Part shown: piece by piece, positions 18,578 to 57,006 of the stretch
How positions within the stretch are numbered: the first letter of the stretch is position 1
Layout: every line of letters starts with the position of its first letter
Virus record (IMG/VR): IMGVR_UViG_3300017917_001940
Coordinates: 1-64,000 of that record
Length of the DNA: 64,000 nt
From: a virus
Reading direction: 5' to 3' (one strand)
Notes under the pieces: generated by a model
Seen by the model: the letters and a program-made list of their open reading frames with translations, nothing else
Databases searched by the model: none
What the model was told of the DNA's origin: nothing
Made by a program: the position numbers and the translations under genes

Positions 18578-19333
18578 ATGAAATATAATATAGAAAAATC
18601 TTGCCCTTATTGTAACAAGACATTTATCACCCGTCCTCGATATGTAACATATTGCTCCTCGTATTGTAAAAACCCCAACAATAGACCCGGTCATACTCCA
18701 TGGAACAAAGGTATAAAGTTATCTGAAGAACAAAAGGCTAAACAAAATACTAGCGGGCTCAAAAAGGGGCATGGATGGAATAAAGGACTTCCAAATCCAG
18801 CCGCACGTGAAAGAATGACAGGAGAAAAAAATCCAAACTGGAATGGCGGGGTTAACAAACAACGACAGAAAGATGGATCTTTGTCTCGCCCAGGTGAATT
18901 AAACGGTATGTACGGACGCAATCATTCCGAAGAATCTAAAGAAAAAATAAGGTTAGCAAAATTAAAGAATTATGAAGATGGTATCTACAAATCAAAATCA
19001 GCCGGAGAATGTGAACTGGCAGAACACCTCATGAGGCAGTTTCCAGATTTAGTTTGGCAATATATTATACCAAATTACTATAGGGTTTATGATTTTTATA
19101 TCCCGTCTTTGAATTTAATAATTGAATACGATGGCGACTATTGGCATCGAGAGGAAAAGTACCATAATAAGGATTACAAAGACACAACTTACGCAATTAA
19201 AGAAGGTTATCAAATATTTCGGTATTGGGAATCGACAATTAAAGAAATAGGAGTTGACAATATCCTAGAGGATATTGTAAAATTAGAAGGTAAGCATCAA
19301 CGAATAATAAAGGAGGATGTTTATGTCATATAG
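18578..19333 (+). CDS. Homing endonuclease, NUMOD3 plus EDxHD/Vsr-like nuclease
   Basis: The 251-aa protein has an N-terminal zinc-ribbon-like part (CPYCNK...YCSSYC), several NUMOD3 DNA-binding motifs (NPNWNGG, NGMYGRNHSEESKEKI) and a C-terminal nuclease domain with YDFYIPSLNLIIEYDGDYWH (about 172-191), typical of DUF559/EDxHD homing nucleases related to Vsr. It lies directly before iscU and overlaps it by 11 bases. This suggests insertion at, or co-mobilisation with, iscU. Late leaderless transcription is predicted. Confidence 0.85.
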   Translation: MKYNIEKSCPYCNKTFITRPRYVTYCSSYCKNPNNRPGHTPWNKGIKLSEEQKAKQNTSGLKKGHGWNKGLPNPAARERMTGEKNPNWNGGVNKQRQKDGSLSRPGELNGMYGRNHSEESKEKIRLAKLKNYEDGIYKSKSAGECELAEHLMRQFPDLVWQYIIPNYYRVYDFYIPSLNLIIEYDGDYWHREEKYHNKDYKDTTYAIKEGYQIFRYWESTIKEIGVDNILEDIVKLEGKHQRIIKEDVYVI

Positions 19334-23316: not shown

Positions 23317-24792
23317 ATGACGCAGATAACAGTAGTTAAACGAAGCGGAGCCCGTGAGCCTCTGCACATTGAGAAATGGCAAGCGCAAGTAGCCAAGGTT
23401 TGCCAGGGCATCGCAGACGTAAGTCAGTCGATGATCGAAATCAAAGCACAGCTACATTTTTACGATGGAATTACCACTCAAGAAATTGATGGTATTACCC
23501 TACGTGCTATCGTAGATCTCATTGACGTAGAACAAAATCCTGACGTAGGACATACCAACTATCAATACGTAGCAGGCAAACAACGCTTGAGCATGTTACG
23601 CAAAGACGTTTATGGTGATTACACTCCTCCACCATTGTACGAAATTATCAAGAAGAATGTAGGCGTGGGTCTTTATTCCTCTGAACTCCTCGAGTGGTAC
23701 ACTGAAGAAGAGTGGAACAAGATGGACGAGATTATTGATCATGAAAAAGATGAGCAATATTCATATGCGGCCATTGAGCAGTTGATTGAAAAGTATTTGG
23801 TACGCAATCGTGCTACAAAGGAAATTTATGAAACTCCACAAGTGCGTTACATGGTGGCAGCCGCTACTGTGTTTCACAAAGAAGAACCTGCATCCGCTCG
23901 TTTACGTTATATTAAAGAATATTACAACTGTGCTAGTGATGGCTTGTTTACTTTGGCTACTCCTGTCCTGGCCGGACTTGGAACTCCAACTAAGCAATTT
24001 AGTAGTTGCGTTCTTATACGTAGTGATGATGATTTGGATAGCATTTTTGCCAGTGGAGAAATGATGGCCAAGTATGCCAGCAAACGTGCAGGCATTGGTT
24101 TGGAAATTGGTCGCTTACGTCCACTAGGATCACCTATTCGTGGTGGCGAGATCATGCACACAGGTATGATCCCATTCCTTAAGAAGTGGTTTGGTGACTT
24201 GCGCTCTTGTTCACAAGGAGGTATTCGTAATGCTAGTGCTACTGTGTTTTATCCTATTTGGCATCATCAGTTTGACGATCTTATCGTGCTCAAGAACAAC
24301 CAAGGAACAGAAGAGACACGAGTACGTCACATGGACTACGGCGTGGTCTTATCCGCATTGTTTTGGCGCAGATTTAAGAACAAAGAAAACATAACATTCT
24401 TTGATCCAAACGAAGTACCAGATTTGTTTGAAGCGTTCTATAGCAATACAGAACTGTTTGAAGACTTGTATAAGAAATATGAAAAGCGCAGTGACTTGCG
24501 TAAGAAAGTAATGACTGCTGAAGAAGTATTCAAAGGTGGCATACTTAAAGAGCGTACAGACACAGGACGCATTTATCTTGTGTATATCGATAATGTGATG
24601 AATCAAGGACCGTTTGATCCAGAGTACCACACAATCTATCAGTCAAATTTGTGCCTGGAGATTTTGCTTCCGACCAAGCCGTTTAAGAAACTTGACCCTG
24701 AAAGAAAACTAATCAGAGTTAAGAAAACAGATGTTGAGAAGTTTATGGCGAATAAATCAAACGACATTGTATCAATAAGGAAGATAAAATAG
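23317..24792 (+). CDS. nrdA: Ribonucleotide reductase alpha subunit, N-terminal piece (NrdA-a)
   Basis: The 491-aa product is the first part of a class Ia alpha subunit. It includes the ATP-cone-like N-terminus (VKRSGAREPLHIEKW), C231 in FSSCVLI, and the catalytic N444-C446-E448 in SNLCLEI. Homology stops after LLPTKPFKKL. The last 30 residues are a lysine-rich tail ending SIRKIK with no counterpart in intact NrdA. The rest of the enzyme is encoded at 25890. Ribonucleotide reductase makes dNTPs for phage replication. Splitting by a homing endonuclease gene is known from Aeromonas phage Aeh1, where the pieces form an active enzyme. Confidence 0.95.
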   Translation: MTQITVVKRSGAREPLHIEKWQAQVAKVCQGIADVSQSMIEIKAQLHFYDGITTQEIDGITLRAIVDLIDVEQNPDVGHTNYQYVAGKQRLSMLRKDVYGDYTPPPLYEIIKKNVGVGLYSSELLEWYTEEEWNKMDEIIDHEKDEQYSYAAIEQLIEKYLVRNRATKEIYETPQVRYMVAAATVFHKEEPASARLRYIKEYYNCASDGLFTLATPVLAGLGTPTKQFSSCVLIRSDDDLDSIFASGEMMAKYASKRAGIGLEIGRLRPLGSPIRGGEIMHTGMIPFLKKWFGDLRSCSQGGIRNASATVFYPIWHHQFDDLIVLKNNQGTEETRVRHMDYGVVLSALFWRRFKNKENITFFDPNEVPDLFEAFYSNTELFEDLYKKYEKRSDLRKKVMTAEEVFKGGILKERTDTGRIYLVYIDNVMNQGPFDPEYHTIYQSNLCLEILLPTKPFKKLDPERKLIRVKKTDVEKFMANKSNDIVSIRKIK

Positions 24793-25600: not shown

Positions 25601-25893
25601 AAACATTAAGAGAGATGATTGATATCGTAGAAGGCCAAAAAGAGCCGTTAGCACAAGTCGGCGACACAGTGGTCTATCACGACTTTACCGGATTTAAGCA
25701 AAAGAAATCAGTTGTTGTATCTATTCACAAAAGAGATTGGGGTTATCAATATCATCTGAAAAATGATGATATCTTAGATGATCTTAGCTTCGAAGAACCC
25801 GGCGGAGCAGAAGTGATCCACAATGAACTCGAAGAAGAAATAACTCCTGAAGCAATAGAAAAAGTAGAATCACTCTACAAGGACAATAAATGA
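25597..25893 (+). CDS. Small acidic protein between endonuclease and nrdA-b
   Basis: This 98-aa acidic protein starts MKTLREMIDIVEG, a head seen in several small phage proteins. It has a beta-rich centre that could be an SH3-like barrel (GDTVVYHDFTGFKQKKSVVV) and an acidic helix at the end. It overlaps both neighbours by 4 bases, so nrdA-b is probably translated by reinitiation after it. It is not part of NrdA. It may be cargo that came with the endonuclease. Confidence 0.6.
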   Translation: MKTLREMIDIVEGQKEPLAQVGDTVVYHDFTGFKQKKSVVVSIHKRDWGYQYHLKNDDILDDLSFEEPGGAEVIHNELEEEITPEAIEKVESLYKDNK

Positions 25894-26921
25894 ATCAGCA
25901 AGTGACCTACTATGAAGTAATCGACCAGTTACCCGAAGAGTTAGACGACGAATACGAATACTACGAAATCGATGAAGCCGAAGGTCGTATTGCACTTTGC
26001 ACATTAGGATCGATCAACTGGGGTGCATTCCGTAACCCAGAAGACATGCGTCGTGCTTGCCGCATACTACAGCGTAGTCTATGTAATATATTAGATTACC
26101 AAGATTTCTTAAGTATTCAATCAAAATTATCAAACGAAGAAATTCAACCACTAGGTATTGGTGTGACTAACTTGGCTTATTGGCATGCTAAACGAGGCAT
26201 GAAGTATGGTGAAGCAGATGCACTAGCAGAAGTAAAGAGCTGGATGGAACACCAGGCTTATTATCTTACTGAAGCAACTGTGGAATTGGCCAAAGAACGT
26301 GGCCCATGTAAAGACAGTGCCAAGACCTGGTATGGTAAAGGAATATTTCCTTGGGAGCGACGTGCTCCGGGTGTAAATGAACTAGCAGATTTTACCCCTG
26401 AGCTAGATTGGAACAGCTTGCGAGAATCCATGCAAACGTACGGTGTAAGGAACGCAACGCTGATGGCCATCGCCCCAGTGGAAAGCTCTAGCGTGGTAAT
26501 CAACTCAACTAATGGTATTGAAATGCCTATGAGTTTGATTACAGTTAAAGAATCTAAAGCAGGTTCATTAACACAAGTAGTTCCTGAGTATCACAAGCTC
26601 AAGAACAAATATCAACTCATGTGGGACCAACCTAACTGTGAAGGATACATTAAAACTGCCGCAGTGTTAGCCGCTTATGTTGACCAAAGCATAAGTACTA
26701 ATACATTCTATTCGCCAAAGCATTTTAAGGACAGAAAAGTGCCTACTACTTTAATTGCTAAGAATTTAATGTTAGCCCACTATTGGGGTCTAAAAACCTT
26801 TTATTACAGTCTAATGGATAAGCAAGGTAGTAAAGGGTTTGACGAAACACCAAAGGTCATTACAACTCATGAAGAAGATAGTGATTTGTTAGAAGAAGAT
26901 TGTATCGCTTGTAAGCTATAA
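25890..26921 (+). CDS. nrdA: Ribonucleotide reductase alpha subunit, C-terminal piece (NrdA-b)
   Basis: The 343-aa product resumes NrdA homology at GRIALCTLGSINWG, where C37 corresponds to the cysteine that pairs with the one in FSSCVLI. It contains the Tyr-Tyr radical-transfer pair (LKTFYYSLMD) and a redox tail ending DCIACKL (C338, C341). The first 30 residues are acidic (PEELDDEYEYYEIDEAEG) and are not found in intact NrdA. The active site is therefore shared between two polypeptides. Translation starts in the overlap AATGA with the small gene upstream. Confidence 0.95.
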   Translation: MNQQVTYYEVIDQLPEELDDEYEYYEIDEAEGRIALCTLGSINWGAFRNPEDMRRACRILQRSLCNILDYQDFLSIQSKLSNEEIQPLGIGVTNLAYWHAKRGMKYGEADALAEVKSWMEHQAYYLTEATVELAKERGPCKDSAKTWYGKGIFPWERRAPGVNELADFTPELDWNSLRESMQTYGVRNATLMAIAPVESSSVVINSTNGIEMPMSLITVKESKAGSLTQVVPEYHKLKNKYQLMWDQPNCEGYIKTAAVLAAYVDQSISTNTFYSPKHFKDRKVPTTLIAKNLMLAHYWGLKTFYYSLMDKQGSKGFDETPKVITTHEEDSDLLEEDCIACKL

Positions 26922-44995: not shown

Positions 44996-45298
44996 ATGTC
45001 ACAAGCAGAAGTAAAAACAAGAACAAGCCTAGAGATTAAAGAACCTCCTATGTTCAAGGTCATTTATCTCAATGATAACCAAACTACTATGGAATTTGTT
45101 ATTGAGACTTTAGTTGACTTTTTTGATTACAATACAGAAACAGCACTAAAAATTACTGAAGATATTCACCACGAAGGTTCAGCAGTAGTGGCTGTTTTAC
45201 CTTATGAGGTAGCTGAACAAAAAGGCATTGAAGTTACTGTTTGTGCTAGATCCAACAACTATCCTCTTCAAATTAAACTTGAACCTGAGTCTGATTAA
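44996..45298 (+). CDS. clpS: ClpS-type N-degron adaptor
   Basis: The 100-aa protein matches ClpS: EPPMFKVIYLNDNQTTMEFV (N26, D27, T30 and M32 of the N-degron pocket), HHEGSAVVAVLPYEVAE (His59) and a C-terminal YPLQIKLE strand. E. coli ClpS has Asp where this protein has N28, so the pocket may differ. ClpS delivers N-end rule substrates to ClpA, which is not encoded here, so it would act on host ClpAP. It runs tail to tail with the phosphoesterase gene, overlapping by 4 bases. Confidence 0.9.
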   Translation: MSQAEVKTRTSLEIKEPPMFKVIYLNDNQTTMEFVIETLVDFFDYNTETALKITEDIHHEGSAVVAVLPYEVAEQKGIEVTVCARSNNYPLQIKLEPESD

Positions 45299-46077
45299 AA
45301 ATCTATTTCAATACGTTTAGGATAATATACTGATTGTTTCCAGGGGGTGTCACCTCGCCCCCGACAATTATTAACAAATCTAATTCCATCTATGTAGCGA
45401 TCAACACCTTTATGGTAGTGACCAAAACACCATGCTTTAATTTTATCTTCAGTATCTTCGTTGATAGCTAATCTCATGTGTTTATTGCCTAGAGTGTTAA
45501 ATCTGTAGGTATCGACTAAATCAATGTCATGATTAACTAATGCAGGGTCTGGTACAGTATGAGTTACAATCACAACAGCCTTAACATCTTTATGAGTTTG
45601 AAGTTTTTCTAGGCTGTTAATAAGGTAAGCCGCATCATTAAATGAAATTCCGGTTATTGAATCAGCTGCCGAGTCTATTTTATCTTGATACCATAAGACA
45701 CTTTCTTCGTAACTTATTGATGAGTCAAAATCATAACCCCACCAACCATTTGTAGCAATGATAGCAACACCATTAATAATTACCACATTGTTTTGCAAAT
45801 ATACTACATTGTCGATATTTTTAAGCACATGATTGAGTTCTCGATAACTTCTTCCTAAATCATTTAGATAATATGCATGTTCATCATTACCGTCGATATA
45901 AAAAACACCCCCGGGATAACAACGACCCAAGTGGCCAAGTGTTTCAACTAATACTCCTCGATCTCTTGCGATGTCTCCTGCTACTACACAATACGGACTC
46001 GTGGCTTGTCCAGTCCAGTTGAACTCATTCCAAGTTTCAATATGTAGGTCAGAAATTAAATCAAATGCAAAAGTCAT
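45295..46077 (-). CDS. Calcineurin-like metallophosphoesterase
   Basis: The 260-aa enzyme shows the metal-binding order SDLHIE, AGDIARD, GNDEH, THTVPD and GHYHKG. Such phage enzymes hydrolyse phosphodiesters of nucleotides, nucleic acid ends or signalling molecules. The substrate here is unknown. In view of the adenylate cyclase at 52388, a cyclic nucleotide cannot be excluded. A late octamer sits 6 bases before the start. Confidence 0.88.
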   Translation of the reverse strand: MTFAFDLISDLHIETWNEFNWTGQATSPYCVVAGDIARDRGVLVETLGHLGRCYPGGVFYIDGNDEHAYYLNDLGRSYRELNHVLKNIDNVVYLQNNVVIINGVAIIATNGWWGYDFDSSISYEESVLWYQDKIDSAADSITGISFNDAAYLINSLEKLQTHKDVKAVVIVTHTVPDPALVNHDIDLVDTYRFNTLGNKHMRLAINEDTEDKIKAWCFGHYHKGVDRYIDGIRFVNNCRGRGDTPWKQSVYYPKRIEIDF

Positions 46078-46103: not shown

Positions 46104-46469
46104 ATGAACATAATAATGGGAACCGAGAACGCACAATCATTTGCTGAGAAATATACAGTATTAGAACTTGATATTATTAAGATCATGCCCGAAGGACATT
46201 GTATACCAGCTTATTGTGTAGTTGAAAACATTCCAATACTAGATCTCAATCGAGTTGATAATATGCGCCGATTGCATCGCGGATTGTTGGAAAACTATCG
46301 CCAAAAAAATTGGAACTATTGTATTCAGGCAATTGAGAATCTAACAGGCTTTTGGGGAGGAGAGTTAGACTCGTTCTACGCTGATTTACAGCAACGTATC
46401 AATAAATACTCAGAACAAGATCCAGGGGAGGATTGGGATGGTACAATTGAAAAACATCCTGTTGGTTAG
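46104..46469 (+). CDS. Conserved T4-like phage protein
   Basis: The 121-aa protein contains LELDIIKIMPEGH, IPAYCVVENIPI and LTGFWGGELDSFYADLQQRI, a family present in many marine T4-like phages without known function. It follows AAAGGA and overlaps the next, lipoprotein, gene by 32 bases. Confidence 0.7.
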   Translation: MNIIMGTENAQSFAEKYTVLELDIIKIMPEGHCIPAYCVVENIPILDLNRVDNMRRLHRGLLENYRQKNWNYCIQAIENLTGFWGGELDSFYADLQQRINKYSEQDPGEDWDGTIEKHPVG

Positions 46470-47128: not shown

Positions 47129-47575
47129 ATGAGAAAAATAATAATAACAATTCTCGCTGGTTTTACTGTTAATGTGTGGGCCGACACCTTAGTTCACCAA
47201 TTTCAATCGCCAGCTTTTATACCGGGTAATGGGTATTCCACTCATGTGCTAACCATTGAACAGCTCGAAGCAAACCGTAAAAAAGCTATACAGGATGCTA
47301 AAAAAGCCGAAGCTGATGCTGCCGCAAGAGCCGCCGCAAATACTAATCTACAAAAATTCCTAAACAACTTTGAAAGTCGTGTTTATGCTCAATTGTCCAA
47401 ACAATTAGCAGACGCTATGTTTTCCTCCACCTCCGGAACCACAGGTACTATAGAATTCCAAGGCACTACTATTACTTGGGACAAGGACACGGTTACCAAT
47501 CAGGTCACGCTAACTATTGTTAGTCCTACAGGAACCACTACGGTTACTGTACCAATAGCGAGCTTTGCATTTTAA
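47129..47575 (+). CDS. csgF: CsgF-like curli assembly protein
   Basis: The 148-aa protein has a signal peptide (to about VWA|D18) followed by LVHQFQSPAFIPGNG. This matches the mature start of E. coli CsgF (FQFRNPNFGG), which plugs into the CsgG channel. A helical FESRVYAQLSKQLADAMF and a C-terminal beta-rich part (VTLTIVSPTGTTTVTVPI) follow the CsgF layout, with an added Ala/Lys helix in the middle. In bacteria CsgF extends the channel and couples secretion to fibre nucleation. Confidence 0.78.
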   Translation: MRKIIITILAGFTVNVWADTLVHQFQSPAFIPGNGYSTHVLTIEQLEANRKKAIQDAKKAEADAAARAAANTNLQKFLNNFESRVYAQLSKQLADAMFSSTSGTTGTIEFQGTTITWDKDTVTNQVTLTIVSPTGTTTVTVPIASFAF

Positions 47576-48354
47576 TGCGAGGCTTAATGACTCTTCTACT
47601 AGCTTTAACCTTAACCGGTTGTGCTGGTCTGCAACTTGATCTTCTCAAAGAAGAACCTGTAGCACTAAAACCCAAAGAAAACTTAATTGCTAAACTGCCC
47701 AAGTTAGATGGTCCACCTATGACCATTGCTGTATACGGATTTATAGATAAAACAGGTCAAAAGAAACCTAGCCAAAACTTAGCGTTGTTTAGTTCAGCAG
47801 TGACACAAGGTGCCGAAGTATTTTTAATTAAAGCACTACAAGATTCACCAGGTTGGTTTAGAGTTGTAGAACGTGTAGGACTAGACAATTTGGTTAAAGA
47901 ACGTCAACTTATTCGAAATCAACGAGAAGTTTACGAAGGTAAGGATGCCAAACCATTAAAGCCATTAACTGTGGCTGGCATTATGATTGAAGGTGGTATT
48001 ATTGGCTATGACAGTAATATCCGTTCAGGTGGTAACGGTGCTCGATTCTTGGGTATCGGAGCCAGCCAACAATATCGAGTCGACGAAGTAGTTATTAGTC
48101 TTAGAATAGTAAGTATTTCGTCAGGTGAGGTATTGTTGACAAACGCTGTGAGCAAAACAATATACAGCACACAGCACGATGTCGCAGTGTTAAAATTCGT
48201 TGATGGTGGCACCAAAGCACTTGAAATGGAAAACGGCTCGGCATTGAATGAACCCACTACCTACGCAGTTCGTGTGGCAATTGAACAAGCGGTATACGAA
48301 TTAATTGTAGAAGGGGAAAAGAAAGGGCTCTGGAGATTTCAGGGCAAACAATAA
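47575..48354 (+). CDS. csgG: CsgG-like outer-membrane secretion channel
   Basis: The 259-aa lipoprotein (E. coli CsgG 277 aa) has lipobox LTGC (Cys16) and strong matches along its length: VYGFIDKTGQKKP, FRVVERVGLDNLVKERQLIR, IMIEGGIIGYDSNIRSGG, GARFLGIGASQQYRVD and LWRF at the end. CsgG forms a nonameric pore that lets curli subunits cross the outer membrane. The ATG overlaps the csgF stop. It is the clearest gene of the module. Confidence 0.93.
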   Translation: MRGLMTLLLALTLTGCAGLQLDLLKEEPVALKPKENLIAKLPKLDGPPMTIAVYGFIDKTGQKKPSQNLALFSSAVTQGAEVFLIKALQDSPGWFRVVERVGLDNLVKERQLIRNQREVYEGKDAKPLKPLTVAGIMIEGGIIGYDSNIRSGGNGARFLGIGASQQYRVDEVVISLRIVSISSGEVLLTNAVSKTIYSTQHDVAVLKFVDGGTKALEMENGSALNEPTTYAVRVAIEQAVYELIVEGEKKGLWRFQGKQ

Positions 48355-48965
48355 TGATAAGAAGTATTTTAATACTCACAATGATGATGTTAGCTGGCGT
48401 TGGAGTCGTTAGTGCCAATGAGGTGTATATTGAACAAATTGGTGATGGTACAAGCATCTCAGTTACTCAAGAAGGATCTAACAACAACATGGGTAGTGCC
48501 AATGCATCGGCATATATCGGTGGTGATGCGAATGATGTAACTGTTAGCCAAGTTGGTTCAAATAATAGTTTGACAATGACCATTGGTGGTAACACTAATA
48601 CTGTTAACGTGAATACTACTGGTAGTAATAATACGCAAGAAATTACCTGCGGTACCAGTGCAAGCCAAACTTGTAGTAGTTCGACTATTACCCAAACAGT
48701 CACTGGTGACTCAAACACTGTGACACAAACTTTAGGTAGTGGTGCAACACGTACAAGTAATATAAACATTACAGGTGATTACAACACTGTAACACATACT
48801 GCTAGTGGTGTTGGCTCTCATAGTGCTGACATTACAGTTAGCGGCAGTGGTACATCGTTGCTTAATAACCATGTTAGCGTAACACAAGAAGGTGCAAATG
48901 CTAAGACAGCAGTGGTTAACGCCACGGGTAATAATATCAATATTGGTATTACTCAGCGCGATTGA
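48354..48965 (+). CDS. Curlin-repeat amyloid-like protein
   Basis: The 203-aa protein has a signal peptide (about 1-21, ending VVSA) and a mature part made of Gln/Asn/Ser/Thr/Gly repeats (ITQTVTGDSNTVTQ, VSQVGSNNSLT, VTQEGANAK) spaced like the CsgA/CsgB repeat. It has a single Cys pair. Such repeats stack into amyloid strands outside the cell. It ends with ITQRD. Which of major subunit or nucleator it is cannot be told. The overlap with csgG (one base) indicates one operon. Confidence 0.85.
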   Translation: MIRSILILTMMMLAGVGVVSANEVYIEQIGDGTSISVTQEGSNNNMGSANASAYIGGDANDVTVSQVGSNNSLTMTIGGNTNTVNVNTTGSNNTQEITCGTSASQTCSSSTITQTVTGDSNTVTQTLGSGATRTSNINITGDYNTVTHTASGVGSHSADITVSGSGTSLLNNHVSVTQEGANAKTAVVNATGNNINIGITQRD

Positions 48966-49995
48966 TAGTTGGGCCGGTGTTGGAAAAGTGACAGAACAAA
49001 CAGGCCCAACTGAAATCGTTAGATCAAAAAAGTCACTGCCGTCGGCGGTGAATACCCCTGTGGAGATGAACGATACCATCATCACTGCCAAGGCTCGGGC
49101 ACAGTTGACCTTTGAGGATAATACCACTGTAAAGATTACTGAACAAAGCAAATTAGTCATAGACGACTTTGTCTATGATCCTAAAAAAGGCACAGGCAAA
49201 GTTGCTATGAAAGTTGTTCTGGGCACAGCTCGCTATTCTTCAGGACAAATAGCCAAGACAAATCCACAAGCAGTGGATGTTAAAACTCCTACTGCTACCG
49301 TGGCTGTTCGCGGCACAGATTTTTCTATGACTGTAGACGAACTAGGGCGCAGTCTTGTTATGTTATTGCCCAGTTGCGATGACAAAGGTTGTGTAACTGG
49401 TGCGATTTTAGTTAAAAATGACGCAGGTGAAGTTTTTATGGATCAGCCATATCAAGCCACACTAGTTGCTACGCTAACCACACCGCCTACAGCTCCTGTA
49501 TTTGTAACCTTAGATCAGGCTAATATTAACAACATGTTAATTGTCAGTCCACCTAAACAGTTTAAAGATGAAGAGCTACAAAAAGAATCAAAGTCAGCAC
49601 TAGATATAAACTTTCTTAATCAAGACTTTTTAAAGTATAGTAAACTTGACGAAGATGAACTTAAAAAGTTTAGAGAATTAGACATGAATTATCTTGACAC
49701 AGATTTTTTGGCCAACATGCTAGATTTAGCCAACGCACAGTTGTCTGCTAGCCAAGAGCAAATGCTCAGTCAAAATACCATGTTGCCTGGCTATAATGCC
49801 GCTACAGGTTTAACGTATGGTATTGATGCAGATGACGACAGTAAACTTGTGCTACGCAGAGGCAACGATCATATTGCTCAAGTTACCGTAAATCGCGAAG
49901 CAAATTTAGTATTAAATATTACACAATCAGGCAACCCATTAACACAGCAGGTTAATCGCGGAGGAACGACGGTAATTACTATTAATCAACGATGA
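48898..49995 (+). CDS. Secreted FecR-domain protein with curlin-like tail
   Basis: The 365-aa protein has a signal peptide (VIISILVLLSAIDSWAG) encoded inside the 3' end of the curlin gene in another frame. Next is a FecR-type domain (ARAQLTFEDNTTVKITEQS, VKTPTATVAVRGTDFSM; about 55-130), then a helical linker. The C-terminal part (LVLNITQSGNPLTQQVNRGG, ending ITINQR) again resembles curlin repeats. It may anchor or seed the fibre. The ATG at 48898 is preferred; GTG 48892 is possible. Confidence 0.8.
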   Translation: MLRQQWLTPRVIISILVLLSAIDSWAGVGKVTEQTGPTEIVRSKKSLPSAVNTPVEMNDTIITAKARAQLTFEDNTTVKITEQSKLVIDDFVYDPKKGTGKVAMKVVLGTARYSSGQIAKTNPQAVDVKTPTATVAVRGTDFSMTVDELGRSLVMLLPSCDDKGCVTGAILVKNDAGEVFMDQPYQATLVATLTTPPTAPVFVTLDQANINNMLIVSPPKQFKDEELQKESKSALDINFLNQDFLKYSKLDEDELKKFRELDMNYLDTDFLANMLDLANAQLSASQEQMLSQNTMLPGYNAATGLTYGIDADDDSKLVLRRGNDHIAQVTVNREANLVLNITQSGNPLTQQVNRGGTTVITINQR

Positions 49996-50152: not shown

Positions 50153-50241
50153 GCTGGTTTAGACACAGGCCGCCAAGGTACCCACCAGAACCACAACAAG
50201 ACCCGGTACCTGACACGTTTTGGCCACCCGAAAACGAATAA
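50149..50241 (+). CDS. Pro-rich peptide, 30 aa
   Basis: The frame MSWFRHRPPRYPPEPQQDPV ends FWPPENE. It starts in the ATGA overlap with the upstream stop and ends inside a late octamer. It is probably translated, and its function is unknown. Confidence 0.45.
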   Translation: MSWFRHRPPRYPPEPQQDPVPDTFWPPENE

Positions 50242-50244
50242 ATA
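50237..50244 (+). promoter_or_regulatory. T4-type late promoter
   Basis: AATAAATA, 7/8 to the consensus, followed by a 27-base leader with AAGGGG and the ATG at 50272. Confidence 0.5.
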
Positions 50245-50271: not shown

Positions 50272-50553
50272 ATGGGTGACATTTTTAAACTCATAGGTGA
50301 TCTTGGTTTTCCAATTGCTGTAGCACTAGCAGGCGGATACTTTGTTTATCTAACAATCAAACTATTATTGCAGGGTGTATTAGGCAGTATTCGCGGCATG
50401 GCGGGTATTATTACTGCACTAGATAACCGTGTAAAGACAATGAATCATGATGTTATACGTATTGATACTGTGGTATCAAATGCACTAGGTCTGCGTCCAG
50501 ACGTAGATCGTATTAGTCGAGCTGATGGCAAAAACGACGCACGGAGAGATTAG
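50272..50553 (+). CDS. Small membrane protein, YvrJ/holin-like
   Basis: The 93-aa protein starts MGDIFKLIGDLGFPIAVALAGGYF, one membrane helix with the GFPIxVA pattern seen in YvrJ-type and phage holin-like proteins. An amphipathic helix (IITALDNRVKTMNHDVIRIDTVV) follows. It shares this plan with the gene at 51362, so the two are paralogues. A role in lysis is possible but unproven. Confidence 0.6.
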   Translation: MGDIFKLIGDLGFPIAVALAGGYFVYLTIKLLLQGVLGSIRGMAGIITALDNRVKTMNHDVIRIDTVVSNALGLRPDVDRISRADGKNDARRD

Positions 50554-51361: not shown

Positions 51362-51688
51362 ATGGATGTAGTAGGATTGATAAACAAGTATGGATTTCCA
51401 ATTGTCATGGCAGTTGGAATGGGATATATTATAAAATATGTGTGGGAATGGTCAACTAAAGAAGTTAAGCCAGTTATCTCTGAAGCAAACACAGTGCTTA
51501 TCGCTCTTATTGATCGTATCCGCATGTTGGATAATGATCTCATCCGCTTAAATCAAAAAGTAAACACCGTATTACATCTTCGTGGTAAGACTATTGAATA
51601 TGAGCGTGTGGAAGCTGAGATGGAAATTAATAAAACTGTACACAAAAAATCTGAAGATGATCAAACTGCAAGTGCAGGTGAAGGTTGA
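51362..51688 (+). CDS. Small membrane protein, paralogue of the 50272 gene
   Basis: The 108-aa protein starts MDVVGLINKYGFPIVMAVGMGYIIKYV (one membrane helix with GFPI). A helical segment IALIDRIRMLDNDLIRLNQKVNTVL follows, which parallels TALDNRVKTMNHDVIRIDTVV of the 50272 protein. It ends in a charged tail. It is likely an ancient duplicate with holin-like shape. The function is unproven. Confidence 0.6.
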   Translation: MDVVGLINKYGFPIVMAVGMGYIIKYVWEWSTKEVKPVISEANTVLIALIDRIRMLDNDLIRLNQKVNTVLHLRGKTIEYERVEAEMEINKTVHKKSEDDQTASAGEG

Positions 51689-52221: not shown

Positions 52222-52440
52222 ACAAATACCTGAACCAATCCACGGGCCCAAACTGGCTCTAGTAGGTTCAAACAATAAATTCCATTGCGGTTGTGTGCCT
52301 GTTAGTATATTACCTGGCAAGTAATGCCAGAATAAAAAACTACTAATCATACTATCAACAATCCAGTCGCTAATCTTACCGACAGGACTATTTGCTAGTT
52401 GCTCGGTATACTGAGTCCCAATCTGATGGTAGTTCAACAT
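52210..52440 (-). CDS. Small hypothetical protein after the cyclase
   Basis: The 76-aa protein starts MLNYHQIGTQYTEQLANSP and has DWIVDSMISSFLFWHYLPG. It begins 7 bases after GAGGAG inside the 3' end of the cyclase gene, in another frame, which is a typical coupled arrangement. It fills what would otherwise be an empty stretch. The function is unknown. Confidence 0.5.
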   Translation of the reverse strand: MLNYHQIGTQYTEQLANSPVGKISDWIVDSMISSFLFWHYLPGNILTGTQPQWNLLFEPTRASLGPWIGSGICLPR

Positions 52441-54439
52441 TTTTCATCTCCTCGCATCTTTCAATCCATATATCATAGTAGTGATCCATTGCACCTTCAA
52501 ATCGACCTTTAAGTTCACGACATTGTTTAATCGCTTGGTCAAACTTCTGTTTGCGGTACAGTGCCAACATAGCATCGTGTAACTGATGGTCGCCTGTGTC
52601 AGCGTTTATTTCATCCTTACGTCCTAGTACAGTATAGATATGTACTCCTTCTGTTTTGCCTTTAACAGCAATACAATCTAGTTCGAGTACATAGTATTCG
52701 TCTGCTACATATTCTGCCGTCTTCGGGCCCAATACGATTTTGACACCATACGGTTTACTTTGCCCTTCAAGACGCGATGCGAGATTGACGCTATCTCCAA
52801 GGCAAGTATAATCGAAACGCTGATCACTGCCCATATTCCCAACAACAACAATCCCGGTATTAATACCAAGACCCATTCCAAAAGGTGGAACACCTTCAGC
52901 AGTAATTTCTTTATTAAATTCATCTAAACTCCCTAACATTTCTAATCCTGTGCGTACAGCATGTTTGGCGTGGTCTGCATCTTTAATCGGTGCGTTCCAA
53001 AATGCCATTTGAGCATCACCAATATATTTGTCCAGTGTGCCGCGATTCTCTAAAATCTTTTTAGTCATGGCAGTCATGTAACGATTCATGATCTTGGTCA
53101 AGCCTTGTACATCTCTACCATAGTGTTCACTGATGCTGGTAAAGCCACGCACATCTGTAAACATAATAGTCAACTCTTGTTCCTCACCACCTAGGCGTAG
53201 TAAGTCTGGACTGCGCTGTAGTTGTGCTACTAGGTCTGGACTCAAGTATGTGCCAAATTGTTTCTTTATTTGTTGCTTTTGCAAGAACTCGCTGACGAAC
53301 TTGACACCGTATGCGTGGAGGGACACAATAAGAATTGCGCCAACAAAGGCAGTGACATCATATAGATACAAACCGTAGCGGTAAGCAAGATGACTACCAA
53401 CCACGGCAATAAGTGTTGTTCCCACAACTGTCGCCAATCCAACATAAACATACCTCGTTAAAAATAATAAACCTACACCTGCTAATAATATAGCAAGTAA
53501 CTCTACACCATCTGCGTAATCAGGACGTTTGATAGTTACACCATTAATCATTGTGCTGATAGCACTAGCTTGAAACTCTTGTGGCCACATAGCACCTTGA
53601 GCAGTTGGCACAGGATTACCCAACCCTGCGGCAGCCGGCCCTACAATAACAATAGCATTACCAAAGTCTTTGGGCAAGTTAGTTAAACTTACGCTCTTTG
53701 ATTTTTGACTTAGGTCAACCCACACACGACCTAGGTTATCTGTTGTGATAGGACCAAATGCTGGCACACGCATCTTCTCTACACCAAGTTCATTTAACTT
53801 AACTTGGAATGTATTGTCACCTGCGGCCACCCGCAAAGTTTCCATCGACAAACTTGGGTATAGTTTATCACCCACTGCTACGACCATTGGCAAGCGACGA
53901 TTAACACCATCTACTTCTGGTAGTGTGCCGACAATTCCCACGCCCACTGCACTTGCTTCTAGAGGGCGAATGTTGGCAATTAATCCTGGATATTGTACAA
54001 CTTGTCCTAAGTATTCTGCACCAATAACAGCCGACCCTGGTTGCTTAGGTGGGTTCTTAGTTTTCTCACTTGGAACACTTGGTAGAATGACTGGATATTG
54101 TTTAAGTGCGTTGGCTAATACAGCATCGCCGCCTGTGCGATCTGGCTCAGCCATAAGGACATTAAACACAACAAGACCAGCATTACGACGATACAAATCT
54201 TTAATGATTTCAGCATATTGATCCCTTGGTAAAGGCCATTGGCCATATCGGTCTAATGTTGCTTCATCTATATTAACTGTGTATATATTGTTTTCTGTAG
54301 GAGCCTTGCTGGTAATCAGTGTGTCAAAATATTTTAAACGAACTGATTCTACAAATGCGGGATCTGCTACTCGCACACATAACACCAGGGCTAATGTAAC
54401 CAACGCAGTCCATGGGTTAATTAGAAGTTTTTTAAGCAT
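52388..54439 (-). CDS. CHASE2-domain class III adenylate cyclase
   Basis: The 683-aa protein has a membrane helix (about 10-25), an extracytoplasmic CHASE2 sensor (about 35-300), a three-helix membrane region (about 310-380) and a class III cyclase domain (about 420-600). The metal Asp residues are D429 (FTDVRGF) and D475 (YIGDAQMAF), base-specifying K471 and T545, and transition-state N552 and R556 (VNLASRLEG). All are present, so cAMP synthesis is expected. Such full-length receptors are bacterial signalling proteins and are very unusual in a phage. A T4-type late octamer precedes the start. Confidence 0.93.
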   Translation of the reverse strand: MLKKLLINPWTALVTLALVLCVRVADPAFVESVRLKYFDTLITSKAPTENNIYTVNIDEATLDRYGQWPLPRDQYAEIIKDLYRRNAGLVVFNVLMAEPDRTGGDAVLANALKQYPVILPSVPSEKTKNPPKQPGSAVIGAEYLGQVVQYPGLIANIRPLEASAVGVGIVGTLPEVDGVNRRLPMVVAVGDKLYPSLSMETLRVAAGDNTFQVKLNELGVEKMRVPAFGPITTDNLGRVWVDLSQKSKSVSLTNLPKDFGNAIVIVGPAAAGLGNPVPTAQGAMWPQEFQASAISTMINGVTIKRPDYADGVELLAILLAGVGLLFLTRYVYVGLATVVGTTLIAVVGSHLAYRYGLYLYDVTAFVGAILIVSLHAYGVKFVSEFLQKQQIKKQFGTYLSPDLVAQLQRSPDLLRLGGEEQELTIMFTDVRGFTSISEHYGRDVQGLTKIMNRYMTAMTKKILENRGTLDKYIGDAQMAFWNAPIKDADHAKHAVRTGLEMLGSLDEFNKEITAEGVPPFGMGLGINTGIVVVGNMGSDQRFDYTCLGDSVNLASRLEGQSKPYGVKIVLGPKTAEYVADEYYVLELDCIAVKGKTEGVHIYTVLGRKDEINADTGDHQLHDAMLALYRKQKFDQAIKQCRELKGRFEGAMDHYYDIWIERCEEMKNVELPSDWDSVYRATSK

Positions 54440-54443
54440 CTAA

Positions 54444-54454
54444 TATTTATTTAC
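54444..54454 (-). promoter_or_regulatory. T4-type late promoter of the cyclase gene
   Basis: On the minus strand GTAAATAAATA holds two overlapping late octamers, ending 4 or 8 bases before the ATG at 54439. This marks the cyclase as a late phage gene with a near-leaderless message. Confidence 0.5.
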
Positions 54455-55760
54455 GGCTAGCTAGGTATCTGTTGTAGTATTTTCTGGCTTTGGATAGAAT
54501 GGCTATATTCTGCTCGAGTGTTAGTGGAGTAATACCTCGGGGAAAAAATTGATTATATAATTTTGGTATACCTGCTAATTTTTTTCTAATTGTTAGATAG
54601 ATTTCGCTTGTATTTGTATTTTCAAGAGTATTGAGCCCAGTTTTAAGATTCTCTCTTAATTCACCAGATACTAAGTTAAAGAATGCATCACTGAAAAAAT
54701 GTTGTTGATTATAGATAGCAATGGTTTTGAGTTGTTGCATCTTATACTGTCGTTCTTCTGATGTCCAATTTTTAATGGTTTTCATAACTTCAATTATTGC
54801 TTCTAATCGAGTGTAATGATCTTCAATTTTATCATAACTTTCATCAATGATACCATCAAATGTTTTAAACCCGTAGCTGTGCAAATATTCTAGAGACCTT
54901 GGAGTACCAGCAAGTATAAACGGTTGTTGGCAAGCAATTGGACGCAATACCTTCTCTGTTAAGTGATTTCTTGGATCTTGAAATAATGTTTCAAGTACAA
55001 TTTCAAAGTTAGTCGACTTATAATCCTCTACATCAAAATCAGCACTATAACAACTAGTGGTGAGGTTTTCTTGAAAATGTTTCTCGAGTTGATTATTTGG
55101 TTTCCATTGTTTATTGATGAATTTGTAATTTGTGTAATGGGTATTGTTATCTGTAAACCCAATGGACGTTTGACATTCGTTAATTAGGTTGTGTTCTATT
55201 AGTAAGTCGGCAAACTTTAATCGATATTCTCTTGTTCCACTCCAAGCCCGGTTGTAAACTAAAAACAGTTTGGTATTATCGTGCTTTCTAAAGTCAACAT
55301 GTTGAGCATATCTAAACCAGTCTCGAGAAATTAATGCATGACTCCAATAATATATCGGAATAAAATTCATTCTTTTATATACGTCAACTTGTGGGGAATT
55401 TCTTTCGCTATGTAACAATAAACATAAATCGTAAATATTTCCAGGGAAGTACCGAAGATTTCTCATCAATGTTGGAGCATTGTTTTCGGTAAAAATTTTA
55501 CACACAAACTCGTTTTCTCCTAACTTTGGATTTAATGTTGGTTTTTGATCTTGATAAAGTTGATAATTTAACGGTTCTTGGTCGTTACAGTATAATTCAG
55601 CAGTTGTCAATTGAGTTACCTCATCGACAATTTTTAATAATGTTAAATCTTCTATTTTTTTACTCCCATGGGGCAAAAAACGATAAATTAGTACATCGCC
55701 GTAAACATCTTGGGCGACACTTTCAATATAGTGATACAATCTATCTAAAGGAATACTCAT
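54447..55760 (-). CDS. Putative glycosyltransferase-like protein
   Basis: This 437-aa protein starts MSIPLDRLYHYIESVAQD. Its C-terminal part LTEKVLRPIACQQPFILAG followed by SLEYLHSYGFKTF resembles the nucleotide-sugar-binding end of GT-B-like or exostosin-like transferases in phages and bacteria. It may add sugars to cell surface or virion components. The start is the ATG whose CAT complement overlaps the divergent ATG at 55759. A 24-residue N-terminal extension to 55832 would be antisense to the next gene and is rejected. Confidence 0.55.
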   Translation of the reverse strand: MSIPLDRLYHYIESVAQDVYGDVLIYRFLPHGSKKIEDLTLLKIVDEVTQLTTAELYCNDQEPLNYQLYQDQKPTLNPKLGENEFVCKIFTENNAPTLMRNLRYFPGNIYDLCLLLHSERNSPQVDVYKRMNFIPIYYWSHALISRDWFRYAQHVDFRKHDNTKLFLVYNRAWSGTREYRLKFADLLIEHNLINECQTSIGFTDNNTHYTNYKFINKQWKPNNQLEKHFQENLTTSCYSADFDVEDYKSTNFEIVLETLFQDPRNHLTEKVLRPIACQQPFILAGTPRSLEYLHSYGFKTFDGIIDESYDKIEDHYTRLEAIIEVMKTIKNWTSEERQYKMQQLKTIAIYNQQHFFSDAFFNLVSGELRENLKTGLNTLENTNTSEIYLTIRKKLAGIPKLYNQFFPRGITPLTLEQNIAILSKARKYYNRYLASRK

Positions 55761-57006
55761 GAAAAATATTGGTTTTATTGGATTAGGAAAATTAGGCCTT
55801 GACTGCGCCGAAGTTATGGCTGAAAAACACACAGTACGGGGTTATGATATTTACCCACGTACAAGTGATGCGGTAAAAGTTTGCTCCATTGAAGAAACAG
55901 TGAACGAAAGCGAATGGATCTTTATCGCAGTTCCTACTCCACACGAAGAAGGTTATGATGGTAGTGTGCCTAGCTCACACATGACTCCAAAGGACTTTGG
56001 GCATGATGCTGTTAAGGATGCTATCCAGAAGGTAAACCAATATGCTACAAGTCCTAAAAAAGTTGTGTTAATTAGTACAGTACTACCGGGCACAACTCGC
56101 AGGCACTTTATTACGTTACTAGACAAAAAGCATCAGTTCTTATACAACCCATATTTGATTGCCATGGGCAGTGTTAAGTGGGACATGGTTAATCCAGAAA
56201 TGATCATGATTGGTACAGAAGATGGTAACCCAAACACCTTAGCTGGTGAGTTGATTGACATTTACAAAACAATCATGCAAAACAATCCACGCTATGAAAT
56301 TGGCACATGGGATGAATGTGAAGCAATCAAGATTTTCTATAACACATTTATTTCGGCTAAAGTTGGCTTGGCCAACATGATCCAAGACTTTGCTCTTAAA
56401 ATTGGCAACATCAACGTTGACGTAGTTACCAATGCATTGGCCCGTAGTACCATGCGTATTATGGGTCCTAAGTATATGACAGCAGGTATGGGAGATGCAG
56501 GTGCTTGCCACCCACGTGATAATATTGCCTTGCGTTGGTTAGCACAAGAATACGAAGTAGGCTACGACTTGTTCGACACTATCATGCATGCTCGCGAAAT
56601 CCAAGCAAAGAACTTGGCACTATTCTTAGTTGATCAAGCCAAGAAATCTAACTTGCCTATTGCTATTCACGGTAAAGCATACAAGCCCGACGTTCCGTAC
56701 TGTATTGGAAGTTATTCAACATTAGTTGGTTATTATGTTGAAGAGGCAGGATTGCCTGTTGTTTACGTAGATCCATTAGCTGACGATGCTACTAAAGTTG
56801 TTGCTAGTGTGGATACACCAGCAGTTTATTTGTGGGCACACAATCGTAAAGTAACCTACGAATACACAGGTGATCAAGAAGCAACTAAACCATATTGTGA
56901 AATCAAGCCAGGTTCAGTTATCGTAGATCCATGGCGTCAATTGCCATTAGACATGGCAGATATTAAGGTTGTACACTATGGTAACACACGCAATAGCCAA
57001 GTATAA
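55759..57006 (+). CDS. UDP-glucose/GDP-mannose dehydrogenase family protein
   Basis: This 415-aa protein has an N-terminal NAD-binding Rossmann fold (GFIGLGKLG), VPTPHEEG and STVLPGTTRRHF. The catalytic region includes KIFYNTF (Lys191, Asn195) and GACHPRDNIALRW (Cys250), plus a C-terminal substrate domain (GKAYKPDVPYCIGS). The family oxidises nucleotide sugars to uronic acids. The nearby glycosyltransferase-like gene suggests sugar-polymer or virion decoration. AAAGGA lies 6 bases before the start. Confidence 0.88.
   Translation: MKNIGFIGLGKLGLDCAEVMAEKHTVRGYDIYPRTSDAVKVCSIEETVNESEWIFIAVPTPHEEGYDGSVPSSHMTPKDFGHDAVKDAIQKVNQYATSPKKVVLISTVLPGTTRRHFITLLDKKHQFLYNPYLIAMGSVKWDMVNPEMIMIGTEDGNPNTLAGELIDIYKTIMQNNPRYEIGTWDECEAIKIFYNTFISAKVGLANMIQDFALKIGNINVDVVTNALARSTMRIMGPKYMTAGMGDAGACHPRDNIALRWLAQEYEVGYDLFDTIMHAREIQAKNLALFLVDQAKKSNLPIAIHGKAYKPDVPYCIGSYSTLVGYYVEEAGLPVVYVDPLADDATKVVASVDTPAVYLWAHNRKVTYEYTGDQEATKPYCEIKPGSVIVDPWRQLPLDMADIKVVHYGNTRNSQV

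Follow-up and report, generated by a model that had tools for sequence, protein, structure and literature searches.

What would a phage gain from a complete receptor with a predicted second-messenger output, and what connects such a receptor with the curli genes that accompany it? These questions are raised by a gene for a CHASE2 receptor cyclase located at positions 52388-54439, on the minus strand, of the stretch of DNA analysed in this work (the window, 64,000 nucleotides corresponding to positions 1 to 64,000 of the IMG/VR virus record IMGVR_UViG_3300017917_001940). The window was taken in one piece from this record, which is 129,829 bases long and in which the cyclase family was matched once. 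To our knowledge, phage transmembrane receptors with second-messenger output have rarely been studied. What the phage curli cassette does is treated as an open question in parts of PMC7029224, PMC9004378 and PMC9599517. The best explanation of our data is a late-expressed outside-in relay that would run from curli and a FecR-domain protein through the CHASE2 sensor to cyclic AMP (cAMP), a reading suggested by sequence comparisons and structure models that we hold tentatively, with a probability of about 0.4.

The open reading frame (ORF) at 52388-54439 has no internal stop and encodes, from an ATG start, a protein of 683 amino acids (aa). It contains a CHASE2 sensor domain (aa 15-321, positions 53477-54397, minus strand; Pfam PF05226, E 1.3e-38) and a class III cyclase catalytic domain with a CyaC/CyaB fold (aa 421-602, positions 52634-53179, minus strand; PF00211 Guanylate_cyc, E 1.6e-20), and is covered over its full length by PHROG 35576, a family with no assigned function (E 3.4e-230). 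Class III cyclases use two metal-binding Asp residues, a Lys that contacts the base, an Asn and an Arg. In the alignment, the catalytic positions were found at D429, K471, D475, T545, N552 and R556, with the metal-binding Asp pair, the Lys and the Arg being invariant in all the homologues aligned (240/240 from phages and 43/43 from bacteria). The ORF is thus an intact CHASE2 plus class III cyclase receptor carried by a phage, as had been proposed in an earlier note made from the sequence alone. The span given there, 52388-54454, included the gene, but its end lay 15 bases past the ATG at 54439.

The AlphaFold2 model of the protein (mean predicted local distance difference test, pLDDT, 89.4) placed one helix before CHASE2 (residues 9-25) and three after it (309-327, 331-356 and 363-395), followed by the cyclase domain and a helical tail. 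This arrangement is compatible with one membrane span before and three after the sensor, and the order of helices and domains would leave CHASE2 in the periplasm. The closest solved folds to the catalytic part were CyaC (1wc3) and CyaB (3r5g), with target template-modelling (TM) scores of 0.85-0.88. CyaB (3r5g) and CyaC (1wc0) share the fold and the residues of the phage domain, CyaB having Lys, Thr, Asn and Arg at the aligned positions; they differ in being bacterial, and their solved chains correspond to the catalytic part, without CHASE2. The predicted substrate is more probably ATP, because the base-contact position holds a Lys where the guanylyl cyclase Cya2 (2w01) has a Glu. Conserved residues and fold together point to cAMP as the likely product.

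The earlier note had also linked the cyclase with curli regulation, and the link was supported by four genes at 47129-49995 on the plus strand. These encode CsgF, with which the recognised part of the curli unit begins (47129-47575; PF10614, E 2.1e-14), the outer-membrane secretion pore CsgG (47575-48354; PF03783, E 2.1e-54), a curlin-repeat protein (48354-48965; PF07012, E 8.9e-7) and a FecR-domain protein (48892-49995), the latter identified by PF04773, its model, a fold match and a C-terminal motif of the family. The genes for the last two proteins, curlin and FecR, share 74 bases that are read in different frames. Two small membrane/coiled-coil proteins follow on the same strand, protein A (50272-50553), whose pair family is kept in phage loci, and protein B (51362-51688; phrog_18771, with a weak holin-family match). 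In the window and in relatives that share its layout, the CsgF-CsgG-curlin-FecR genes and the small pair are followed by the cyclase in inverted orientation, 2.4 kb from FecR. In the common, although not universal, layout the cyclase follows FecR/curlin immediately and in the same orientation. The window does not show this layout but has the same gene set.

The association of these genes was quantified in locus scans that each retained the best 80 loci and therefore favour near relatives. CsgF, CsgG, curlin and FecR accompanied the cyclase in 88/88 cyclase-anchored phage loci whose two flanks each exceed 6 kb, and the small pair did so in 87/88 (loci not deduplicated, HTVC008M being present twice, and bacterial locus L087 left out). 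When CsgG was used as the anchor and both flanks had to exceed 9 kb, cyclase and FecR were present in 39/39 phage loci, of which 34 also had the small pair; some of these contigs overlap the cyclase-anchored set. The cyclase is therefore practically obligate in the phage curli cassette. Homologues in HTVC008M, Melnitz and hundreds of relatives rule out a cyclase unique to the window phage, as well as its absence from every related phage, an outcome that the earlier note had considered. That note had also raised a chimeric assembly. The order UGD, the gene at 54447-55832, cyclase, 51362-type gene, 50272-type gene and curli recurs in L004, an independent contig, and this identical synteny outside the window's own contig makes a chimera unlikely.

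A different picture was obtained around bacterial homologues of the cyclase. The 43 bacterial loci comprised 40 stretches at the best alphaproteobacterial matches and three from SAR116, several of them cut by contig ends. CsgF, CsgG and curlin were found in none of them (0/43), whereas a FecR-domain protein was present within the fetched flank in 12/43, not always adjacent to the cyclase; it adjoins the cyclase in the SAR116 loci L087-L089. Since the bacterial loci have FecR without curli genes, the pairing of cyclase with FecR seems to be the older, bacterial one, and the combination of cyclase, FecR and curli is a phage arrangement. Close bacterial relatives were represented by 7 loci in the contig search, and a wider search of 385 genomes from one class gave a match in 226. 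Three of the 7 loci, from bins of metagenome-assembled genomes (L084-L086; two Rhodobacteraceae and one Pirellulales), have the phage cassette, complete or in part, and are probably phage contigs. The cassette is also present in viral contigs of 264-364 kb (L003, L009, L010, L058, L075, L342, L350, L380 and L396), far larger than the isolates of 141-147 kb.

The sensor and the catalytic head of the receptor appear to have had different histories. The residues at positions 545/552 define three active-site classes whose sizes depend on the queries used: T/N (68 phage and 1 bacterial protein), D/S (94 phage proteins and 3 from SAR116) and S/N (78 phage and 39 bacterial proteins). In relatives retrieved using the protein of the window, itself of the T/N class, the heads of D/S proteins were 44-55% identical to that of the window while their sensors were 62-74% identical; for T/N relatives the identity of the heads was 73-87%. 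In quick trees of 125 representatives, the active-site class changed 3 times on the cyclase-domain tree vs 15 times on the CHASE2 tree, and within the window's CHASE2 clade (n = 49) the corresponding values were 1 and 8. The D/S heads of this clade were monophyletic on the cyclase tree (support 100), and monophyly of the same proteins was rejected by the CHASE2 data (log-likelihood difference 264, p 1.9e-8). Phage sensors formed one clade on the CHASE2 tree (support 100), and on the cyclase-domain tree the phage D/S heads grouped with SAR116 heads (support 99). According to identity profiles, the exchanged part begins near aa 381-400, in a linker that is among the most conserved stretches of the protein. 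These results indicate that the catalytic domain has been repeatedly exchanged under one phage-specific CHASE2 sensor. Because the sensor and head trees disagree, a single-protein tree of the cyclase family mixes two histories.

Covariation with neighbouring genes points to FecR as the partner of the sensor. In partial Mantel tests (500 permutations), CHASE2 distances correlated with those of FecR given CsgG in 111 non-redundant loci (r 0.42, p 0.002), and also in the 43 loci in which the two genes are more than 2 kb apart (r 0.44, p 0.002). The correlation of CHASE2 with CsgG given FecR was -0.14 and -0.10 in the same two sets, and that of the catalytic half with FecR in the detached loci was 0.03 (p 0.22). 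The data suggest that CHASE2 covaries with FecR beyond the linkage of the curli genes, detached genes included, with some possible contribution of residual linkage.

The phage FecR protein has features of its own. In its model (mean pLDDT 76.3), a helix resembling a signal peptide (residues 3-21) leads directly into the FecR beta domain, and a low-confidence linker on the C-terminal side is followed by a small six-stranded domain ending in a curlin-like strand. The FecR domain matched the cell-surface-signalling fold of PupR (6ovk; Z 15.3 over 136 residues, root-mean-square deviation 2.7). A cytoplasmic N-terminal anti-sigma part is absent, so that a reading of this protein as an iron-citrate regulator is unsupported. 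A terminal h-x-h-x-Q motif was present in 199/206 distinct phage FecR C-termini and in 238/312 curlins, as compared with 13/177 CsgF, 2/219 CsgG and 3/193 cyclases. The curlin spacing G-x2-N-x-h-x3-Q occurred within the last 16 residues in 61/216 FecR proteins vs 1.6 in shuffled sequences, and a relaxed curlin half-repeat in 147/216 vs 3.7. Such a tail was seen by eye in the last 30 residues of 0/9 bacterial FecR-domain proteins, the three cut by the locus end (L289, L297 and L317) having been excluded from the 12 viewed.

Regarding expression, the earlier note had described a minus-strand late octamer before the cyclase ATG and had proposed phage control, which our positional statistics support. 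The late-promoter-like octamer AATAAATA occupies positions 54451-54444 on the minus strand, at -12 to -5 from the ATG, and its position is fixed in relatives; the octamer scan also located AATAAATA at 50237-50244 on the plus strand, upstream of small protein A. For cyclases that do not follow immediately after FecR/curlin, 103 distinct upstream regions were scanned; NATAAATA starts at -13/-12 in 25 of them and elsewhere within 60 bases in 3. Considering all families, an octamer precedes 56/226 cyclases (45 of them at -13/-12), 98/216 CsgF genes and 109/405 small-pair genes, vs 0/219 CsgG, 0/219 FecR and 9/376 curlin genes, a distribution that suggests three separately started units. The CsgF gene of the window is not among the window genes with the octamer.

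The same placement extends beyond the cassette. Of the 1638 remaining ORFs with a minimum length of 150 aa in loci L002-L250, 77 had NATAAATA at exactly -13 and 14 at -12, as compared with 0-8 octamers at any other single position; the window cases are those at 18578 and 54439, the latter being the cyclase start. No octamer was found at -13/-12 of the 1277 ORFs in bacterial loci. Within the window, NATAAATA precedes 7/39 intergenic starts vs 0.3 expected from its density, in a list that omitted the gene at 54447 and thus counted the cyclase with a 1,320-base intergenic upstream region. The variant TATAAATA was discarded as a late motif, with 2 occurrences in the window vs 5.9 expected. In T4, late octamers span roughly -13 to -6 relative to the start of the transcript. 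With the octamer fixed at -13/-12, this spacing would put the transcript start on or next to the ATG, which suggests a leaderless late mRNA for the octamer genes. If the placement is read correctly, leaderless late mRNAs are predicted to be pervasive across this phage group; no leaderless late transcripts with this octamer were found in the open-licence PMC literature. The gene at 54447-55832 lies on the same strand directly upstream of the cyclase, and co-transcription of the two is also possible because only 7 bases separate it from the cyclase ATG.

The relay that we favour would combine these observations as follows. The phage would produce CsgG/CsgF pores and a curlin-type protein at the surface of the infected cell, as judged from homology, where fibres may form. 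The secreted FecR protein would touch curlin or the pore with its curlin-like end and contact the periplasmic CHASE2 domain with the other, as covariation and motif suggest, and CHASE2 would control how active the class III domain in the cytoplasm is, with cAMP being made from ATP. This cAMP would be read by host receptors. Since no cyclic-nucleotide-binding protein was found in the phages (0/24 records), its effect would pass through such receptors or through an unrecognised protein. Partnership with FecR would preserve the sensor, and recombination in the linker near aa 381-400 would exchange the catalytic head. The further proposal that the phage senses its own secreted amyloid, and that exchangeable heads suit the way in which the host reads cAMP or its defences, perhaps with different cyclic nucleotides, we regard as doubtful. 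The covariation of sensor and FecR, together with the FecR tail, turns the curli genes into a specific and testable relay, and the natural head swaps provide ready pairs, with one sensor and different heads, to ask what a change of cyclase gains the phage.

Several observations weigh against this relay. The FecR tail motif was chosen after viewing the alignment, Pfam detects no curlin repeat in FecR, and the hhalign comparison of the tail with curlin was weak (E 0.065); a true curlin repeat at this end is not backed by profile methods. Regarding covariation, the catalytic half also showed a weak correlation with FecR in the full set (r 0.19, p 0.002, n = 111) and in the window clade (r 0.12, p 0.010), and the partial Mantel test cannot fully remove linkage, FecR being nearer to the cyclase than CsgG is in collinear loci. 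The bacterial pairing of cyclase and FecR is frequent rather than fixed. Finally, PMC9004378 reports that cells infected with Melnitz did not clump in the culture conditions used there.

Among the alternatives, the one that survives best, although we consider it unlikely, is that the cyclase simply increases cAMP in the host during late infection to serve metabolism, CHASE2 and FecR having come as a bacterial unit with little sensing. The invariant metal, Lys and Arg positions (240/240 phage homologues), an octamer of the cyclase's own (45/226 at -12/-13) and the proximity of FecR and cyclase also in bacteria are all consistent with it. On the other hand, the sensor has been conserved and follows FecR even as the heads change, for which reason the sensor end looks selected, and the cyclase is present in every full curli-bearing phage locus (39/39).

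Somewhat less likely is a release clock made up of the CsgGF pore, a holin-like pair, FecR and the cyclase, which would extend the lysis-timing role proposed for CsgGF in a section of PMC9004378. The pair of small membrane proteins accompanies the cassette in 87/88 loci, and late octamers are found on cyclase, CsgF and pair vs 0/219 CsgG and 0/219 FecR genes. The two proteins of the pair are related to each other (93 and 108 aa) and show holin and YvrJ matches, but these matches are weak (E 0.0019 and 0.0041), and a pore alone leaves the curlin-repeat proteins and the curlin-like FecR tail unexplained. We give slightly less credit still to ordinary T4-like mosaicism, that is, functionally meaningless homologous recombination at a conserved linker. 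The linker is indeed among the best-conserved stretches of the protein, but the exchanged heads are only about 44-55% identical and the pairing of sensor with FecR is retained.

A counter-defence role, in which heads would be swapped in a cyclic-nucleotide arms race (a Pycsar/CBASS-like decoy or interference, maybe with class-specific products), is the least likely of these alternatives: the heads have been replaced repeatedly, the D/S class alters two catalytic positions together and PycC models match the cyclase domain (PADLOC, E 3.1e-25), but such models may match class III cyclases in general, the invariant base-contact Lys points to ATP in all classes, and no cyclic-nucleotide-binding partner was found. 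The PF00027 domain was found in 0/24 phage records and was also missing from the window's own, possibly incomplete, record (0/1), and PADLOC matches were confined to the cyclase domain, so that the anti-defence effect suggested in the earlier note found no support. A change in the carbon metabolism of the host, likewise raised there, gained no support either. The window protein has the class III domain in common with PycC and differs in being a membrane receptor with CHASE2; membership in Pycsar was rejected as no partner effector with a cyclic-nucleotide-binding domain was found.

The cassette and its cyclase are already in print. PMC9599517 (2022) describes, in the part relevant here, an adenylate cyclase, a FecR and a histidine kinase with the type VIII secretion system (T8SS) curli cluster of pelagiphages, places the histidine kinase gene before CsgF and suggests an alphaproteobacterial origin for the cluster. 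As far as this part shows, that cluster and the window are alike in CsgF, CsgG, curlin repeat, FecR and adenylate cyclase, and the conserved order and alphaproteobacterial affinity agree with those of the window group; the window differs in its inverted cyclase, 2.4 kb from FecR. No Pfam match to HisKA or HATPase domains was obtained in either protein of the small pair. HTVC008M and Melnitz have an annotated CHASE2-cyclase directly behind CsgF-CsgG-curlin-FecR-curlin, a gene set like that of the window, with cyclases 37% (HTVC008M, S/N class) and 41% (Melnitz, D/S class) identical to that of the window. Phage curli genes are discussed in sections of PMC7029224 and PMC9004378, in whose texts the word "cyclase" does not occur. 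Bacterial clusters of CHASE2 cyclase and FecR are described in parts of PMC9239204 and PMC5498481. The bacterial CHASE2 receptor cyclases (SAR116, S. meliloti CyaD1/SMc02177, Campylobacterota) have a FecR-domain protein nearby, as here; unlike the phage loci, the 43 bacterial loci lack CsgF, CsgG and curlin, and the nine uncut bacterial FecR proteins lack the curlin-like end. No counterpart of the head exchange, the CHASE2-FecR covariation, the FecR tail or the fixed octamer was found in the part of PMC9599517 concerned, nor did the open-licence PMC literature yield the modular evolution, the covariation, the tail or the promoter placement.

Other genes lie close to this system. A stand-alone homologue of the last ~110 residues of the cyclase, 121 aa long, is encoded at 46104-46469 on the plus strand (E 6.6e-19, with a profile built from full-length phage and SAR116 cyclases). 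It is kept in about 30 loci (not deduplicated), usually beside the phosphoesterase or CsgF, and purifying selection on the family is likely, since the median ratio of non-synonymous to synonymous substitution rates (dN/dS) was 0.33 over 103 pairs. One may speculate that it tunes the cyclase. The phosphoesterase noted earlier at 45295 is a metallophosphoesterase (45295-46077, minus strand; phrog_1649, E 5.3e-25; TIGR03729 below cut-off) with calcineurin-like motifs recognisable by eye; nothing linked it with cyclic nucleotides, and a function as cAMP phosphodiesterase was unsupported by family searches. The gene at 54447-55832 gave no match in Pfam, PHROG or further family searches.

Elsewhere in the window, no structured RNA reached the Rfam gathering score and no tRNA or tmRNA was found. 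No structural genes were recognised among 10 proteins of the right half of the phage; a 535-aa protein was tail-spike-like in a tblastn search. The large subunit of ribonucleotide reductase is apparently split into two parts, 23317-24792 and 25890-26921, about 1.1 kb apart and with two ORFs between them, in which the insertion of an intron or homing gene is possible.

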